A DNA stretch of 64,000 nt from Phyllobacterium sp. 21LDTY02-6 (GTDB lineage Bacteria > Pseudomonadota > Alphaproteobacteria > Rhizobiales > Rhizobiaceae). The position numbers and the translations under genes were made by a program. The stretch lies in NCBI RefSeq assembly GCF_023554255.2, contig NZ_JAMJWD020000002.1:186001-250000 (forward strand), given 5' to 3'. Of this stretch, positions 12,697 to 51,706 are shown piece by piece (position 1 is the stretch's first letter; the number at the start of each line of letters is the position of its first letter). A model generated the notes under the pieces. It made no database searches. It was not told the origin of the DNA and worked only from the letters and a program-made list of their open reading frames with translations.

Positions 12697-12767
12697 CAGC
12701 CTCGGCGCTTCCGCGCCAGTTGACGGCCCGCCCATGGGCCGAAATCCGTCAGACGAATGGAGCAATC

Positions 12768-14135
12768 ATGTCCATTTCAAGTGCGGCTGCCCGGCAGCCC
12801 AAAGAAGCAAGCATCTCCCTCTACAGGGCCATCTGGCGCTGGCATTTCTTCGCCGGCCTGCTGGTCGTGCCTTTCATGATCAACCTCGCGGTGACCGGCT
12901 CGCTCTATCTGTTCAAGGACGAGATCGACAATACGGTCTTTGCCGGCCGCAACATCGTGCAGATGCGGGGCGAACCGCTGCCGCCCTCGGTGCTCGTCGA
13001 AAACGCCAGGGCCGCGACGCCCGGCGCAAAGCTCGTCCGCTACAGGACGCCCGCCGATGCGCACCATTCCGCGCGTGTCACGATGGCGACGCCCGGAGGC
13101 AATCTGCTGGTCTTTCTCGACCCCTACAGCGGCGCGGTGCTCGGCAGCGTGGCGGAGAAGAACGAGTTCAACTGGGTGGTCAAGAAGATCCACAGCCTCG
13201 AATATTTCGGCGTCAGCTTCAACCGCATCGTCGAAGCGGTCGGCGGCCTGGCGCTGATCCTCGTCGTCACCGGCTTCTATCTCTGGTGGCCGCGCCAGCA
13301 GACCGGCGGGGTCGTCAGTATCCGCGGTACGGCGTCGAAGCGCGTGTTCTGGCGCGATATCCATGCGGTGACCGGCGCCGGCGCCGGCGCCCTGATCTTC
13401 TTCCTCGCCATTTCCGGCATGCCATGGTCGGGCTATTGGGGCGGCAAGGCCAATCAACTCATCTCGAATGCCGGCCTCGGCTATCCGACCGCGCTGTGGG
13501 ACGAGGTTCCGGCATCGTCGGCGCCGCTGAAGACCGTCGTCCCGGATGCCGCCTGGACCATGGAAAATGCGCCGGTTCCGGCATCTGTCGCCCGGCCCGG
13601 CAAAACGGCGCCGCAGCTTGACGATATCGTGGCTGCCGCAACGGCGGCGGGCATGACCGCCGGCTTCGAAGTCTCGATGCCCTCGGGAAAGTCGGGCGTC
13701 TATACGGCCGCCATCTTCCCCGACGACATAGCCAGGCAGCGGACCATCCATTATGACCGCTATAGCGGCCAGCCGCTGGCGGACATCAGGTTCGCCGACT
13801 ATGGTGCCGGCGGAAAGCTGATCGAATTCGGTGTCGGCGTGCATCTCGGCCAGTATTTCGGCCTCGCCAACCAGATCGTCATGCTCATCACCTGCCTCGC
13901 CATCGTGCTTGCCTGCACTTCGGCGATCGTCATGTGGTGGAAACGCCGTCCCTCGGGCCGGCTGGGAGTGCCGCCCATGCCGGCGCGCAAGCGCGTATTC
14001 GCCACGCTGACAGCCGTGATCCTGGCTTTCGGCATCGCATTTCCCCTCACCGGCTTCGCCATACTCGCCATGCTGGTCGCGGACCAGCTGGTCGGCCGCG
14101 CCGCTTCCCCCCTGCAACGCATTTTCTCTTCCTGA
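12768..14135 (+). CDS. PepSY-associated transmembrane protein (PiuB-like)
   Basis: 455-residue inner-membrane protein of the PepSY-associated TM helix family (PiuB/PepSY_TM). An N-terminal helix (WRWHFFAGLLVVPFMINLAV) is followed by a periplasmic PepSY-like stretch, two or three central helices (around EAVGGLALILVVTGFYLWW and GALIFFLAISGM), another extracytoplasmic domain, and C-terminal helices with WWKRRPSG. Members are often tied to iron or copper acquisition; some act as membrane reductases, but function is not settled. The ATG at 12768 is chosen because GGAG precedes it and it opens the hydrophilic N-terminus. The PCu(A)C gene starts 11 bp after its stop, so they are co-transcribed. Confidence 0.88.
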   Translation: MSISSAAARQPKEASISLYRAIWRWHFFAGLLVVPFMINLAVTGSLYLFKDEIDNTVFAGRNIVQMRGEPLPPSVLVENARAATPGAKLVRYRTPADAHHSARVTMATPGGNLLVFLDPYSGAVLGSVAEKNEFNWVVKKIHSLEYFGVSFNRIVEAVGGLALILVVTGFYLWWPRQQTGGVVSIRGTASKRVFWRDIHAVTGAGAGALIFFLAISGMPWSGYWGGKANQLISNAGLGYPTALWDEVPASSAPLKTVVPDAAWTMENAPVPASVARPGKTAPQLDDIVAAATAAGMTAGFEVSMPSGKSGVYTAAIFPDDIARQRTIHYDRYSGQPLADIRFADYGAGGKLIEFGVGVHLGQYFGLANQIVMLITCLAIVLACTSAIVMWWKRRPSGRLGVPPMPARKRVFATLTAVILAFGIAFPLTGFAILAMLVADQLVGRAASPLQRIFSS

Positions 14136-14146
14136 TGGAGCTTACG

Positions 14147-14677
14147 ATGAAGAACATTCTTTCAGCCGCAGCCATGGCATTGCTTCTCGCCCAGATGCCG
14201 CCTGCCGCCTTCGCCCATGATCATTCCGCCATGACCGGCGCCGAACCCGCCGCCGCGGAAGGCCATGAGATGGGCGATACCAAGGCCGGCGAACTGACGA
14301 TCGGCAATGCCTTTGCCCGGGCCACCCTGCCGGGCGCCAAGGTCGGCGGGGCCTATGTCACCATTGCCAATACCGGGAGCGAGGCGGACCGGCTTCTTGG
14401 CGGCTCCACGGCCGTTGCCTCCCATGTCGAGGTGCATGAGATGAAGATGGACGGCAATATCATGCAGATGCGAAAGTTGAAGGAAGGCCTTGCCATTCCG
14501 GCGGGCGAAACTGTCCAGCTGGCACCGGGCGGCCTGCACCTGATGCTGATGGGGCTGAAGCAACCCCTGAAGGAAGGCGAAATGCTGCCGGTTACGCTCG
14601 AATTCGAAAAATCCGGCAAGGTCGAGCTGGAATTCATGGTTGGACCGGCCAATGGCGCGGGAATGGAGCATAAATGA
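14147..14677 (+). CDS. PCu(A)C periplasmic copper chaperone
   Basis: 176-residue periplasmic copper(I) chaperone of the PCu(A)C (DUF461) family, which delivers copper to the CuA or CuB site of cytochrome oxidase together with SCO. A signal peptide ends near residue 23 (PAAFA then HDHSAM). The mature N-terminus is His/Met-rich (HDHSAM; GHEMGD), suggesting extra copper binding. The domain carries the family's ligand pattern: His97, Met108, then His131 and Met133 in GGLHLMLMGL. GGAG lies six bases before the ATG at 14147. The downstream SCO gene overlaps its stop (ATGA), a tight coupling consistent with joint action. Confidence 0.92.
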   Translation: MKNILSAAAMALLLAQMPPAAFAHDHSAMTGAEPAAAEGHEMGDTKAGELTIGNAFARATLPGAKVGGAYVTIANTGSEADRLLGGSTAVASHVEVHEMKMDGNIMQMRKLKEGLAIPAGETVQLAPGGLHLMLMGLKQPLKEGEMLPVTLEFEKSGKVELEFMVGPANGAGMEHK

Positions 14678-15267
14678 TGAATTATCGTGCCGTACGACTG
14701 GGGCTCTGGGGTGCAATCGCCGTCCTCGTTGCCTTCCTGGTCTATACTTATTTCTATGCGGGCCAGAGCCGGCGCCCAGATCCGGTGCAGCTCGGCAGCC
14801 CCTTCACCCTCACCGACCAGAACGGCGCGCCGATCACCGAGGCCGCGTTGACGGGCCATCCCAGCGCGCTCTTCTTCGGCTTCACCCACTGCCCCGAGGT
14901 CTGCCCGACCACGCTGTTCGAAATGGCCGGCTGGCTGGACCAGCTCGGCGATGAAGGCAAGGACCTGCGCGTGTTCTTCATCACCGTCGACCCGGAAAGG
15001 GACACGCCCGAAGTGATGAAGAATTATACGTCCGGCTTCACCAGCCGGATCACCGGGATCACCGGCAAGCCCGAGGACGTGACGAAACTGGTCAAGAGCT
15101 GGCGCATCTATGCCAAGAAGGTGCCGACCGACGACGGCAGCTATACCATGGATCACACTGCATCGGTGATGCTGCTCGATCGCGACGGAAAGCTGAAAAG
15201 CACCATCGACTACAAGGAGAGCCCGGACGTCGCCCTGAAGAAACTGCGCCTGCTGATCGCAGGATGA
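14674..15267 (+). CDS. SCO1/SenC family copper chaperone
   Basis: 197-residue membrane-anchored thioredoxin-fold protein for copper delivery to cytochrome c oxidase. One N-terminal transmembrane helix (about residues 8-29) leads to a periplasmic domain with the copper ligands Cys73 and Cys77 in THCPEVCPTT and His161 in MDHTASVML. VDPERDTPEV, diagnostic for the family, is at about 105-114. The start overlaps the PCu(A)C stop as ATGATGA; either Met could initiate. It is the last gene of the copper cassette, and no oxidase subunit genes lie nearby, so it serves an oxidase encoded elsewhere. Confidence 0.93.
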   Translation: MMNYRAVRLGLWGAIAVLVAFLVYTYFYAGQSRRPDPVQLGSPFTLTDQNGAPITEAALTGHPSALFFGFTHCPEVCPTTLFEMAGWLDQLGDEGKDLRVFFITVDPERDTPEVMKNYTSGFTSRITGITGKPEDVTKLVKSWRIYAKKVPTDDGSYTMDHTASVMLLDRDGKLKSTIDYKESPDVALKKLRLLIAG

Positions 15268-15399
15268 ATTCGCTTCCGCCTCGCCCATACGCTTTCGCCT
15301 CGCCCGGACGAGATGTGGCGGCGAGGCGGGATGTGGCGGGGCGGAACGAAACAAAATTGCCCTGGATCGAACATTTGTATACCAAAATACTCATAATTT

Positions 15400-15416
15400 T
15401 CTAGAATCATTCTAAG
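15400..15416. promoter_or_regulatory. ICE-box-like palindrome (possible Irr site)
   Basis: tctagaa-tca-ttctaag matches the iron-control-element pattern TTTAGAA-N3-TTCTAAA at 12 of 14 defined half-site bases. It lies in an AT-rich segment 338 bp ahead of the Cys-rich gene at 15754 and 133 bp past the SCO gene. Irr, the haem-responsive Fur-family regulator of Rhizobiales, binds such elements. The match is seen; regulation is inferred. Confidence 0.5.
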
Positions 15417-15636
15417 CTATTGATATTTTTATCTGTTTTGAAATTTAATGTTTGACATTGCCTCCCGGTCGAGCATTTATGCGATAGCGCCAAGCGCAGC
15501 CTTTGATGCCCGGGCCTTGAACCCGTTCGATTGGAGGACCCTATGATAGGTCTTTTTATGCCACGCCGACGCGTGGTTTCACTATTGCATGGCCGGGAGT
15601 CGCCTTTCATTGCCGGCCTCGTCACCCGCAGCCGAC

Positions 15637-15708
15637 CGACGACGACAGTTGCGCGTGGCTTACCGACGACAGTCGTATGCGGCTTGCCGACGACAGTCGC
15701 GCGCGGCT
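15637..15708. repeat. 24-bp tandem repeat, three units
   Basis: Units at 15637-15660, 15661-15684 and 15685-15708 share the core cgacgacagt followed by a variable g/c-rich part and ending in ggct. The last two units differ at five positions, the first is more diverged. It ends 46 bp before the start codon at 15754, within the probable leader. Confidence 0.8.
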
Positions 15709-15753
15709 TGCCATTGGCCAGTCATCGAAACCTCTGTGACGATGGGAGCAGCG

Positions 15754-16260
15754 ATGTTTCCGCACATGTCTGAGACCAATGCAGGCACGGGCTGCTATTT
15801 CGACCGCGCGCCGGAAAAACTCGTACTCGAGGGCTATCGCCGCTGGATCGCCGGCTTCGAAACCGGGTCCGTCGTAGCCTGGGAGATGGCCTATGGGCTC
15901 TATAGCGAGATACTCGGAAGCCGGAACGGCAATCGCGCCCTCGCAGACCTGTCCTTCTTCGTGCGCACGCTGCGCCACAAGGCACTGGTGCCGCTGAAGA
16001 CATTTCCGTTCGGCTCGCATCATGTCTGCCGCGAGGAGTGCCTGACGCTGGGGCTGATCGCGGGGCTTCAAAATTGCGACATGGTTGCGGCAAGAACCTG
16101 CCTCAATGCCATGGCATGTCCTGCGTCGAGCGAAGAACTGGAGAACGCGGCCATCGGCTTTGCCGAAACGCTGGCGGAAATGGACCAGATATTGCTGCCG
16201 ATCCCGAGGTTCGCCATCGATGACATAATTTCTCGCCCTTTGCGGGCCAAATATCACTGA
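15754..16260 (+). CDS. Unrecognised Cys-rich protein, possibly iron-regulated
   Basis: 168-residue soluble protein I cannot assign to a family. It appears mostly helical, with no signal peptide or membrane segment. Six cysteines (14, 92, 96, 108, 116, 122) include a compact HHVCREEC motif (His89, His90, Cys92, Cys96) and Cys116-x5-Cys122, suggesting a metal- or cluster-binding role. I chose the ATG at 15754, since GGAG lies about six bases upstream; the ATG at 15742 is the alternative. An ICE-type palindrome lies upstream, and a 58-residue membrane peptide starts 15 bp after its stop, probably in the same transcript. It could be iron- or haem-responsive; that is inference from the site only. 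Confidence 0.7.
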   Translation: MFPHMSETNAGTGCYFDRAPEKLVLEGYRRWIAGFETGSVVAWEMAYGLYSEILGSRNGNRALADLSFFVRTLRHKALVPLKTFPFGSHHVCREECLTLGLIAGLQNCDMVAARTCLNAMACPASSEELENAAIGFAETLAEMDQILLPIPRFAIDDIISRPLRAKYH

Positions 16261-16275
16261 AAAGGGAACCGAATC

Positions 16276-16452
16276 ATGGCAATCACATCACGCACCGAGC
16301 GCCAGCTTTCCATAGCGGCAACCTTGCTGCTCACGGCGGCGATCTTCGTCATTCCGCTGAAAACACCGTACCAGCACGCACCGATCGCCGACCTGAAACC
16401 GGTCGTAGTGCACCTCGCCTATGCCGAAACCGCGCTGACCATTCGCAAATGA
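16276..16452 (+). CDS. 58-residue single-span membrane peptide
   Basis: A short gene just downstream of the Cys-rich gene. The ATG at 16276 is preceded by AAGGGA at good spacing and opens 58 codons: MAITSRTERQ, one hydrophobic helix (LSIAATLLLTAAIFVIPL), then a short polar tail ending AETALTIRK and TGA. Positive charge precedes the helix, which predicts the C-terminus outside the cytoplasm or a secreted peptide. The 15-bp gap to the previous gene suggests co-transcription. An inverted repeat that could end the transcript lies eight bases past the stop. Function unknown; reality of the gene is supported by the ribosome-binding site and helix, not by homology. Confidence 0.6.
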   Translation: MAITSRTERQLSIAATLLLTAAIFVIPLKTPYQHAPIADLKPVVVHLAYAETALTIRK

Positions 16453-16459
16453 TGGCGGG

Positions 16460-16504
16460 GAGCCTGTGAGAAGCTCATTCGCCATCCACGGCCAGCACAG
16501 GCTC
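16460..16504 (+). terminator. Inverted repeat after the membrane-peptide gene
   Basis: GAGCCTGTG (16460-16468) and CACAGGCTC (16496-16504) are exact inverted copies with a 27-base loop, just past the stop at 16452. The long loop and lack of a T-tract make this a weak terminator candidate. Confidence 0.4.
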
Positions 16505-16542
16505 TGGTTAGACGACAATTTCAGTAAGGTATAGCGTCCGGG

Positions 16543-16554
16543 TAGAATATTCTA
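16543..16554. promoter_or_regulatory. 12-bp perfect palindrome upstream of sulfate operon
   Basis: tagaatattcta is fully self-complementary and sits 87 bp before the sbp start in an AT-rich tract. It may be an operator for the sulfate-uptake operon. Its half-site spacing differs from the ICE box upstream (2 versus 3 bases). A small hairpin (CGCCC/GGGCG, 16585-16601) follows in the likely leader. Confidence 0.4.
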
Positions 16555-16640
16555 TCTTTTCGGGATAAAAGGAATTCTTTCTAACGCCCTTCTTTCGGGC
16601 GCCTCTGCTACGCTTCGGTTACAACGACACGGAGGCAGGC

Positions 16641-17675
16641 ATGAAAAGTTCCAGACTGATACTGGCCGTAGCGGCGACGCTGCTCTTTGCAACGGCAAGC
16701 ACCAATAGCATCATGTCCGCCGCCATGGCCGACACGACCTTGCTCAATGTTTCCTATGACCCGACACGTGAATTCTACAAGGAATTCAATGCTGCCTTCG
16801 CGGCCAAGTGGAAGACCGACACCGGCGAAACGCTTACCGTGCAGGCATCGCATGGCGGTTCCGGCAAGCAGGCCCGCGCGGTGATCGACGGGCTCGACGC
16901 GGATGTCGTCACGCTGGCGCTGGAAAGCGATATTGCCGCAATCGTCGACAATACGAAGAAAATCAATCCGGATTGGCGCAGCAAGTTCCCGCACAATTCC
17001 GCGCCCTACACGTCGACGATCGTTTTCCTCGTCCGCAAGGGCAACCCGAAAGGGATCAAGGATTGGGGTGACCTGATCAAGGATGGCGTCGAAGTCATTA
17101 CCCCGAACCCCAAGACCTCCGGCGGCGCGCGCTGGAACTATCTCGCCGCCTGGGCCTGGGCGCATGGCCAGTTCGGCGGCGACGAAGCCAAGATCAAGGA
17201 ATATATCGGCACGCTGTTCCAGCATGTGCCGGTGCTCGATACCGGCGCGCGCGGTTCGACTACCACATTCGCCCAGCGCCAGCTCGGCGACGTGCTGCTC
17301 GCCTGGGAAAACGAGGCCTATCTGTCGCTGGCCGAGTTCGGCGAAGACAATTTCGACATCGTGGTTCCGCCGCAGTCGATCCTGGCAGAGCCGCCGGTCG
17401 CCGTCGTCGATGCCAATGTCGATGCGAAGGGCACCCGCAAGGCGGCGGAAGCCTATCTGCAATATCTTTATTCGCAGGAGGGGCAAACCCTTGCAGCGAA
17501 ACATTATTATCGCCCCGCCGAGCCCAGTCTCGTTCCGGCCGAACTTATCAAGAAGCTTCCGGAGTTGAAACTGGTGACGATAGATGATCCAATCTTCGGC
17601 GGATGGGCCAAAGCGCAGCCCTACCACTTTGGAGATGGCGGCACATTTGACCAGATTTACAAGCCGAAACAGTAA
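16641..17675 (+). CDS. sbp: Sulfate ABC transporter substrate-binding protein
   Basis: 344-residue periplasmic binding protein for sulfate (possibly thiosulfate). The signal peptide ends near residue 30 (SAAMA then DTTLL). The mature start [15 protein letters not shown] and the motifs [16 protein letters not shown] and [16 protein letters not shown] are hallmarks of Sbp/CysP proteins; [15 protein letters not shown] is also conserved. It is the first gene of sbp-cysT-cysW-cysA on one strand, with only 6 bp to cysT. I call it Sbp rather than CysP by general resemblance, which cannot be settled by eye. A palindrome at 16543-16554 may regulate the operon. Confidence 0.95.
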
Positions 17676-30096: not shown

Positions 30097-30112
30097 ATTC
30101 TCAGTTGAGAAT
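30097..30112. promoter_or_regulatory. Palindrome upstream of the Fur/Mur gene
   Basis: ATTCTCA-GT-TGAGAAT is a perfect inverted repeat (7-bp arms) 37 bp before the fur start codon. The GAGAAT/ATTCTC half-sites resemble elements bound by Fur-superfamily regulators, so autoregulation is plausible. Not a perfect match to any one consensus I can recall. Confidence 0.5.
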
Positions 30113-30149
30113 CTTTGCAACTGGCGCCAATCTGGAGCATAGTTGCACC

Positions 30150-30587
30150 ATGGCAAATGCGAGTGGCAACAAACCGGATTACGAGAAAGAGCTGCGCCGG
30201 GCCGGCGTGCGGATCACCCGGCAACGGCGGGTCATCCTCGATATCCTGACATCGACGGAAGACCATCCCGACGCGATGAAGATATTCCATCGCGCCATCG
30301 AGATCGACGACAGCATCTCGCTTTCCACCGTCTACCGGACGATGAACCTGCTTGAAGAGATGGGCGCCATCCACCGCCATGCCTTCAATGGCGGGCCGTC
30401 ACGCTTCGAACAGGCCCATGGCGAGCACCATGATCACCTGATCGACATCGACAGCGGTGCGGTCATCGAGTTTCAGTCCGACAAGATCGAACGTCTCCAG
30501 GACGAAATCGCCCGATCTCTCGGGTATGACATCGTCCATCATCGTCTCGAATTGTATGGAAGAAAGATCAAGAAAGCCAAAGCCTGA
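30150..30587 (+). CDS. fur: Fur-family regulator, Fur/Mur type
   Basis: 145-residue metal-dependent repressor. The winged helix contains [15 protein letters not shown] and [20 protein letters not shown]; the dimerisation half has [10 protein letters not shown] (His93, His94, His96), Glu87, and [10 protein letters not shown] at the C-terminus. There is no cysteine, so it lacks the structural zinc site of enteric Fur, and it lacks haem-binding Cys motifs of Irr. In rhizobia and Brucella such proteins mostly sense manganese (Mur), so iron or manganese control is possible. I start at the ATG at 30150; an upstream GTG-type extension would overlap the palindrome. It converges on ptsN, sharing a hairpin. 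Confidence 0.9.
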
Positions 30588-51622: not shown

Positions 51623-51706
51623 TTCATGCTAATCTTGACTTGAAGAGGATGGTTTAAAGGCCTATATCCGTCTTTGAATTATTCTAAACTAGATGCGAGA
51701 CGCGCC

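Follow-up and report, generated by a model that had tools for sequence, protein, structure and literature searches.

The gene for an unnamed Cys-rich protein in Phyllobacterium sp. 21LDTY02-6 is likely to belong to the Irr regulon and to be transcribed into an mRNA that carries a second switch common to other iron genes. The conserved leader RNA is the unexpected part, pointing to a second control layer in rhizobia and their relatives. We examined the gene in a stretch of 64,000 nucleotides, hereafter the window, in which the relevant features are as follows.

15400-15416, + strand: Irr-type (ICE) box TCTAGAATCATTCTAAG, conserved upstream of homologous genes
15418-15424, + strand: TATTGAT block right behind the box, conserved across element-bearing promoters
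15452-15480, + strand: putative promoter, judged by eye, with TTGACA at 15452-15457 and a weak -10 hexamer, ATTTAT, at 15475-15480
15500-15538, + strand: 39-nt RNA element, a predicted Shine-Dalgarno-hiding hairpin (conservation, pairing)
15533-15537, + strand: Shine-Dalgarno sequence GGAGG, part of the hairpin's 3' arm
15543-15773, + strand: 76-aa leader ORF whose end overlaps the first 20 bases of the Cys-rich gene
15640-15712, + strand: 24-bp tandem repeat in three copies, within the leader ORF
15754-16260, + strand: gene for the Cys-rich protein, 168 aa, of an unnamed helical family
16276-16452, + strand: 58-aa ORF, probably a small membrane protein (helix judged by eye)

An earlier note on this DNA had proposed an iron-responsive module consisting of an Irr-type palindrome, a Cys-rich protein and a small membrane peptide, and we found the palindrome at 15400-15416, where the note had placed it. 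The form TCTAGAANNNTTCTA occurs a single time with zero mismatches in the whole 4.6-Mb genome. Sites with up to three mismatches to TTTAGAANNNTTCTAAA numbered 46 genome-wide, against 61 for the reversed control; since this loose pattern is no commoner than its control, single sites prove little and it is the conserved position that carries the case. Loss of the box between related genomes had been named as the result that would overturn the proposal, and we found the box kept: with the same three mismatches allowed, 29 of the 30 best family loci have it 223-362 bp ahead of the Cys-rich gene, and of the 80 named loci retained as the best of 102, 71 have it within 700 bp upstream. More distant family loci carried it within 900 bp upstream in 32 of 40 cases, frequently 80-200 bp away. 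Nine of the named loci (again the best 80 of 102) lack it, and six of these nine belong to Pseudovibrio.

The earlier note also held that a gap of 338 bp weakens the link between box and gene. This gap (337 bp by our count) is a leader with the conserved 39-nt element and the leader ORF, and the distance therefore does not weaken the link. Given that spacing, the box might instead serve the SCO1-type gene upstream or some unseen transcript, an idea raised in the same note. We regard this as highly improbable: box and element precede the Cys-rich gene even where the upstream genes differ, and elsewhere they precede bfd or imelysin genes with like spacing.

The genome encodes both Irr and RirA (NCBIfam equivalog models, above cut-off). 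The Irr gene at C5:60561-60839 (L048) matches NF045678 and NF045677, and rirA matches NF008886. Further near-consensus boxes of the genome adjoin rirA, a rubrerythrin-VIT (MbfA-like) gene and an Nfu gene, and the element trails only two of this genome's boxes. One Irr-type box elsewhere in the window, CTTTGAATTATTCTAAA at 51672-51688 (two mismatches), stands immediately 5' of an Nfu-type Fe-S scaffold gene, and the leader element is absent there. The window also holds a Fur-family gene at 30105-30587 (PF01475 match at G000:C5:216201-216557), which is distinct from Irr.

Alignments of the upstream regions share a common order: the TATTGAT block behind the box, TTGAC, a -10-like hexamer and then about 39 almost invariant bases, around which the sequence aligns poorly between relatives. 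Transcription would start near 15487, with the box centre about 79 bases upstream. A promoter scan gave none at its threshold, and no intrinsic terminator was found in 15260-16660. The element was present before the Cys-rich gene in 30 of the 30 best family loci and in 5 of the 40 more distant ones. Among the named loci (the best 80 of 102), 66 of 80 carry it by pattern and 14 are without the exact pattern; a model of the element adds one more (L188). Counted between the starts of box and element, the spacing is 104-109 bases in 84 of 115 distinct promoters and 102 in the window.

The element is shared with other iron genes. A second genomic copy, the sole other site within three mismatches, lies at C1:1106785-1106819 and is identical to the window copy at 33 of 39 positions. 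It follows an ICE box at a distance of 91 bases and heads a Bfd-like gene (Fer2_BFD at 22.4 bits, under Pfam's 26) and a bacterioferritin gene (TIGR00754 match above cut-off), adjoining rirA. Across the family, the pattern was found in 85 of 297 genomes and 35 of 109 genera (reversed control, 0) and the model in 91 of 297 genomes and 39 genera. Outside the family, the model gave two marginal matches among 384 other class genomes, G446 (E 5.7e-4) and G475 (E 8.2e-4), both of which are doubtful.

To characterize the genes behind the element, we used 70 site loci, 30 from the pattern search and 40 chosen with a gene not yet known as the Cys gene; removal of two duplicates left 68 distinct sites. 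The first recognised gene was Bfd at 31 sites, imelysin at 27 and the Cys gene at 4, with none recognised at 6; the low share of the Cys gene is by design, as sites already known to head it were mostly left out. At two of the Bfd sites (L268 and L269), an outer-membrane-like gene precedes the Bfd gene. A box lies within 260 bp of the element in 63 of the 68 distinct sites (65 of 70 with duplicates). At L249, a variant element lies behind an ICE box and before a gene that looks to encode an ECF sigma factor, which may represent one more class of target. At L274 and L275, the element is kept before a sulfate-binding gene, and a Cys-gene homologue was not found in either genome; the element there is perhaps a relic or a new target. 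The remaining three of the six sites look unrelated, and no recognisable iron gene was found downstream of the flagged sites L282, L283 and L289. An Rfam scan of the window gave no match at the gathering threshold. Within 15200-16700 there were only two sub-threshold matches (M23 and a microRNA), which we took as chance, and six other loci gave none at E 0.1. We found no description of the shared element in the mostly open-access literature searched.

We then asked how the element might fold. In the predicted hairpin, CCUUUGAU pairs with AUUGGAGG, which contains the Shine-Dalgarno sequence, and an inner GGG:CCC stem encloses the loop CCUUKRA in nearly all copies (CCUUGAA being the common form). 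We assessed pairing in an alignment of 92 copies, 73 of them distinct, with the doubtful weak copies L331, L332 and L282 included. In this alignment 97.4% of cells pair, both-sided change occurs in 5 of 12 pairs (8 cells), and none of 500 shuffles reached any of five pairing measures. When the arms were slid against each other, 39-69% of cells paired, and a slide of +1 still showed 7 both-sided cells in 3 pairs. This alignment was fitted to the proposed structure and its sequences are related, so that the figures support the fold without proving it. With 44 sequences, RNAalifold recovered the same core with zero both-sided changes. Covariation is thin because the element's sequence is nearly invariant, and the compensatory support for a Shine-Dalgarno-hiding stem is modest.

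Folding energies gave a similar picture. The window 39-mer takes the proposed fold at -12.1 kcal/mol, which 16 of 200 shuffles equalled or bettered, and the stem of the L283 copy reaches -16.8 kcal/mol. In a 125-nt context, the lowest energy belongs to an alternative pairing of the same Shine-Dalgarno sequence, with the start codon in its loop; both predicted pairings would hide the Shine-Dalgarno sequence. Candidate hairpins flanking the element, convincing by eye, were only modestly above shuffled sequence and are not claimed.

The fixed distance between box and element, together with the fact that GGG...CCC is also a DNA dyad, could mean that the element acts as DNA, as an extra operator or promoter part past the transcription start, with the RNA fold incidental. 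We consider this very unlikely. Most of the cells in three outer pairs read G-U or U-G, which would disrupt a dyad in DNA and leave a stem in RNA intact; most single changes preserve pairing, and the element contains the Shine-Dalgarno sequence of the ORF that follows. We also considered whether the element itself is coding and rejected two candidate frames. The frame F-D-V-W-A-L-N-P-F-D-W-R, protein-like at first sight, has no consistent preceding start codon, and whole codons vary within it. The frame AUG-X-GGG-CCU-UGA has no Shine-Dalgarno sequence, and its stop is lost in copies with a UUU loop (by eye).

The element's Shine-Dalgarno sequence would serve the leader ORF. A start codon stands 38-49 bases past the element's TTT in 125 distinct leaders, and 2 further leaders had none. 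In 88 of these 125, no stop interrupts the leader frame until 30 nt or less from the gene match, compared with 33 and 41 for the other frames; among the 88, 12 continue into the gene as one frame (imelysin in 9, Bfd in 2, the Cys gene in 1). At L072, the element's Shine-Dalgarno sequence serves the Cys gene directly. Overlaps of the ATGA type terminate many of the leader ORFs. Mean pN/pS of the leader ORF was 0.24/0.42 in Phyllobacterium (12 of 18 listed loci used) and 0.21/0.44 in the Brucella-Ochrobactrum group (12 of 22), whereas the main gene gave 0.06/0.54 and 0.05/0.49, respectively. Such weak amino-acid constraint, which the 24-bp repeats also fit, suggests that translation of the leader ORF, rather than its peptide, is what seems to matter.

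The sequence of events that we propose is as follows. Irr would act at the ICE box, where activation and repression are both possible. The promoter downstream of the box would yield an mRNA whose first conserved part is the 39-nt hairpin. In the folded state, with the Shine-Dalgarno sequence paired to CCUUUGAU, the hairpin would block ribosomes until a signal (a ligand, a protein, an RNA or temperature) opened it. Opening would allow translation of the leader ORF or, in some genomes, of the iron gene itself. Because the leader ORF stops at the start codon of the following gene or overlaps it, ribosomes would probably go on to translate that gene by coupling.

The leader RNA may sense iron or haem status, directly or through an RNA-binding protein, and so set translation of Bfd, Bfr, imelysin and the Cys-rich protein jointly, on top of Irr; our analysis leaves this a tentative idea, and a somewhat doubtful one. 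It would make the element a bacterial counterpart of ferritin IRE control, by analogy and not by descent, with Bfd and Bfr acting in iron release and storage and imelysin in import. An RNA thermometer that opens upon warming is unlikely. The element's Shine-Dalgarno sequence is predicted to pair with a U-rich arm through several G-U pairs, as such a device would have it, and RNA thermometers of iron genes are described in the available text of PMC3660397 and PMC9002310. However, melting would not need a near-invariant apical loop, and some copies have strong stems, such as that of L283. We think it equally improbable that a trans-acting small RNA or a CsrA-like protein targets the element. The conserved loop is predicted to be single-stranded and could pair, and CsrA is reported, in what is available of PMC6686035, to control iron storage genes of E. 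coli; against this, CsrA (PF02599) is absent from this genome. As for a small RNA, an exact complement to the 13-base core GGGCCTTGAACCC is found nowhere in the genome but at the two elements, and one-mismatch complements occur at control level, though shorter or imperfect pairing may occur. The proposed hairpin switch, whichever signal opens it, is our preferred reading.

Next, we characterized the Cys-rich protein. Its six Cys (residues 14, 92, 96, 108, 116 and 122) and HHVCREEC motif, pointed out previously, are borne out in the 168-aa product. Homologues turned up in 71 of the 297 family genomes, and a profile search of 385 class genomes found them in 28 (its own genome is counted in both). 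The window protein had no match above cut-off in Pfam or NCBIfam, 45 homologues gave isolated sub-threshold Pfam matches only, and a plasmid search with the protein gave no match. Across 70 aligned homologues, Cys76 and Cys79 (a CxxC) are present in 68, Glu95 in 69, Cys92 in 59, Cys122 in 64 and a C-terminal His in 68. The exceptions at the CxxC are the window copy (Lys76, Val79) and one truncated row with gaps. Metal binding by the homologues is plausible; for the window copy, without the CxxC, it is doubtful, and the handling of haem or iron suggested in the earlier note is tentative. The predicted structure is a helical bundle (pLDDT 86.2, from 41 sequences). Against solved structures, Foldseek gave a best E of 1.1, VIA a best Z of 4.3 (rmsd 4.8 over 107 residues) and a profile search designed bundles only, at E 0.097 or worse, none of them a clear match. 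In distant homologues, the genes that come after the Cys gene encode imelysin (PF09375), Bfd-like and Bfr proteins and, in one case, what is probably a DUF1111 dihaem protein. As judged from gene content, this neighbourhood ties the family to iron import and storage.

The 58-aa ORF begins 15 bp past the stop of the Cys-rich gene, as had been described. A similar ORF was found in 54 of 80 relatives (L140-L219, the best 80 of 102); it is 54-84 aa long, has a conserved start ERRLxxAA... and lies downstream of the Cys gene. The iron-responsive module of the earlier note is supported in part, and its link to iron more strongly than the note supposed, with the box conserved, Irr and RirA encoded and iron genes as neighbours; the small ORF appears tied to iron by position only. 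The module as observed exists and is, by these genomic signs, linked to iron. PepSY-TM, PCuAC copper chaperone and SCO1-type genes lie in a row upstream (window 12720-15267), and several relatives have similar genes upstream. A sulfate-transport neighbour (cluster 14, a binding-protein gene) is next in 4 of 60 compared loci. Record JAHREI010000001.1 (L197), titled Bacillus subtilis SK6B4, has a locus that resembles Pseudochrobactrum and is probably mislabelled or contaminated.

Published work on Irr bears on this model in more than one way. In work on Brucella melitensis M5-90, Irr was bound at rirA and at a gene for a 2Fe-2S protein lying two locus tags off, and the irr mutant has a reduced transcript of the latter (available text of PMC10374146); from its position near rirA, this gene is probably bfd. 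According to the accessible part of PMC7762939, bfr is repressed by Irr in rhizobiales, and the sign of Irr action, activation or repression, is set by the position of the site. In Brucella abortus inside macrophages, Irr is up and Bfr is down, as far as the available portion of PMC5587712 reports. The published sign of Irr at bfr is in conflict, and we count this against the proposed model, though a post-transcriptional checkpoint could reconcile the conflicting reports on bfd and bfr. If the model is true, the leader RNA adds a translational layer across iron storage, iron import and the Cys-rich protein. The compact leader could serve as a reporter to find its signal, and the link to the leader gives a handle on the unnamed Cys-rich family.

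Finally, we compared the arrangement with known systems. Rhizobial iron control is described in PMC7762939 as a transcriptional network of Irr and RirA, and the words post-transcriptional and translational are absent from the available text of that account. The ICE box, the presence of Irr and RirA in the genome and the downstream iron genes are common to that regulon and to the present case; a leader element behind two of the boxes is what is added here. The serC RNA element of Alphaproteobacteria (RF00517; PMC1273637, available text) is likewise a short leader element near an inferred transcription start, its final hairpin hides the ribosome-binding site as we propose here, and the ligand is unassigned in both. 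It differs in sequence, in its GNRA loop and in its serC-serA genes; the present element has no Rfam match and occurs together with an Irr box, a leader ORF and genes of iron metabolism. FourU-type thermometers of haem-uptake genes also set a U-rich arm against a Shine-Dalgarno sequence on iron-related genes, whereas the present element has a conserved apical loop and sequence. The ferritin IRE of animals is a hairpin in the 5' leader of an iron-storage mRNA that blocks translation, with a CAGUGN apical loop and a C bulge as its hallmark. The likeness lies in a hairpin in the leader of iron-storage mRNAs that would block translation; the loop here is CCUUKRA, not CAGUGN, and the hairpin would act by pairing the Shine-Dalgarno sequence.
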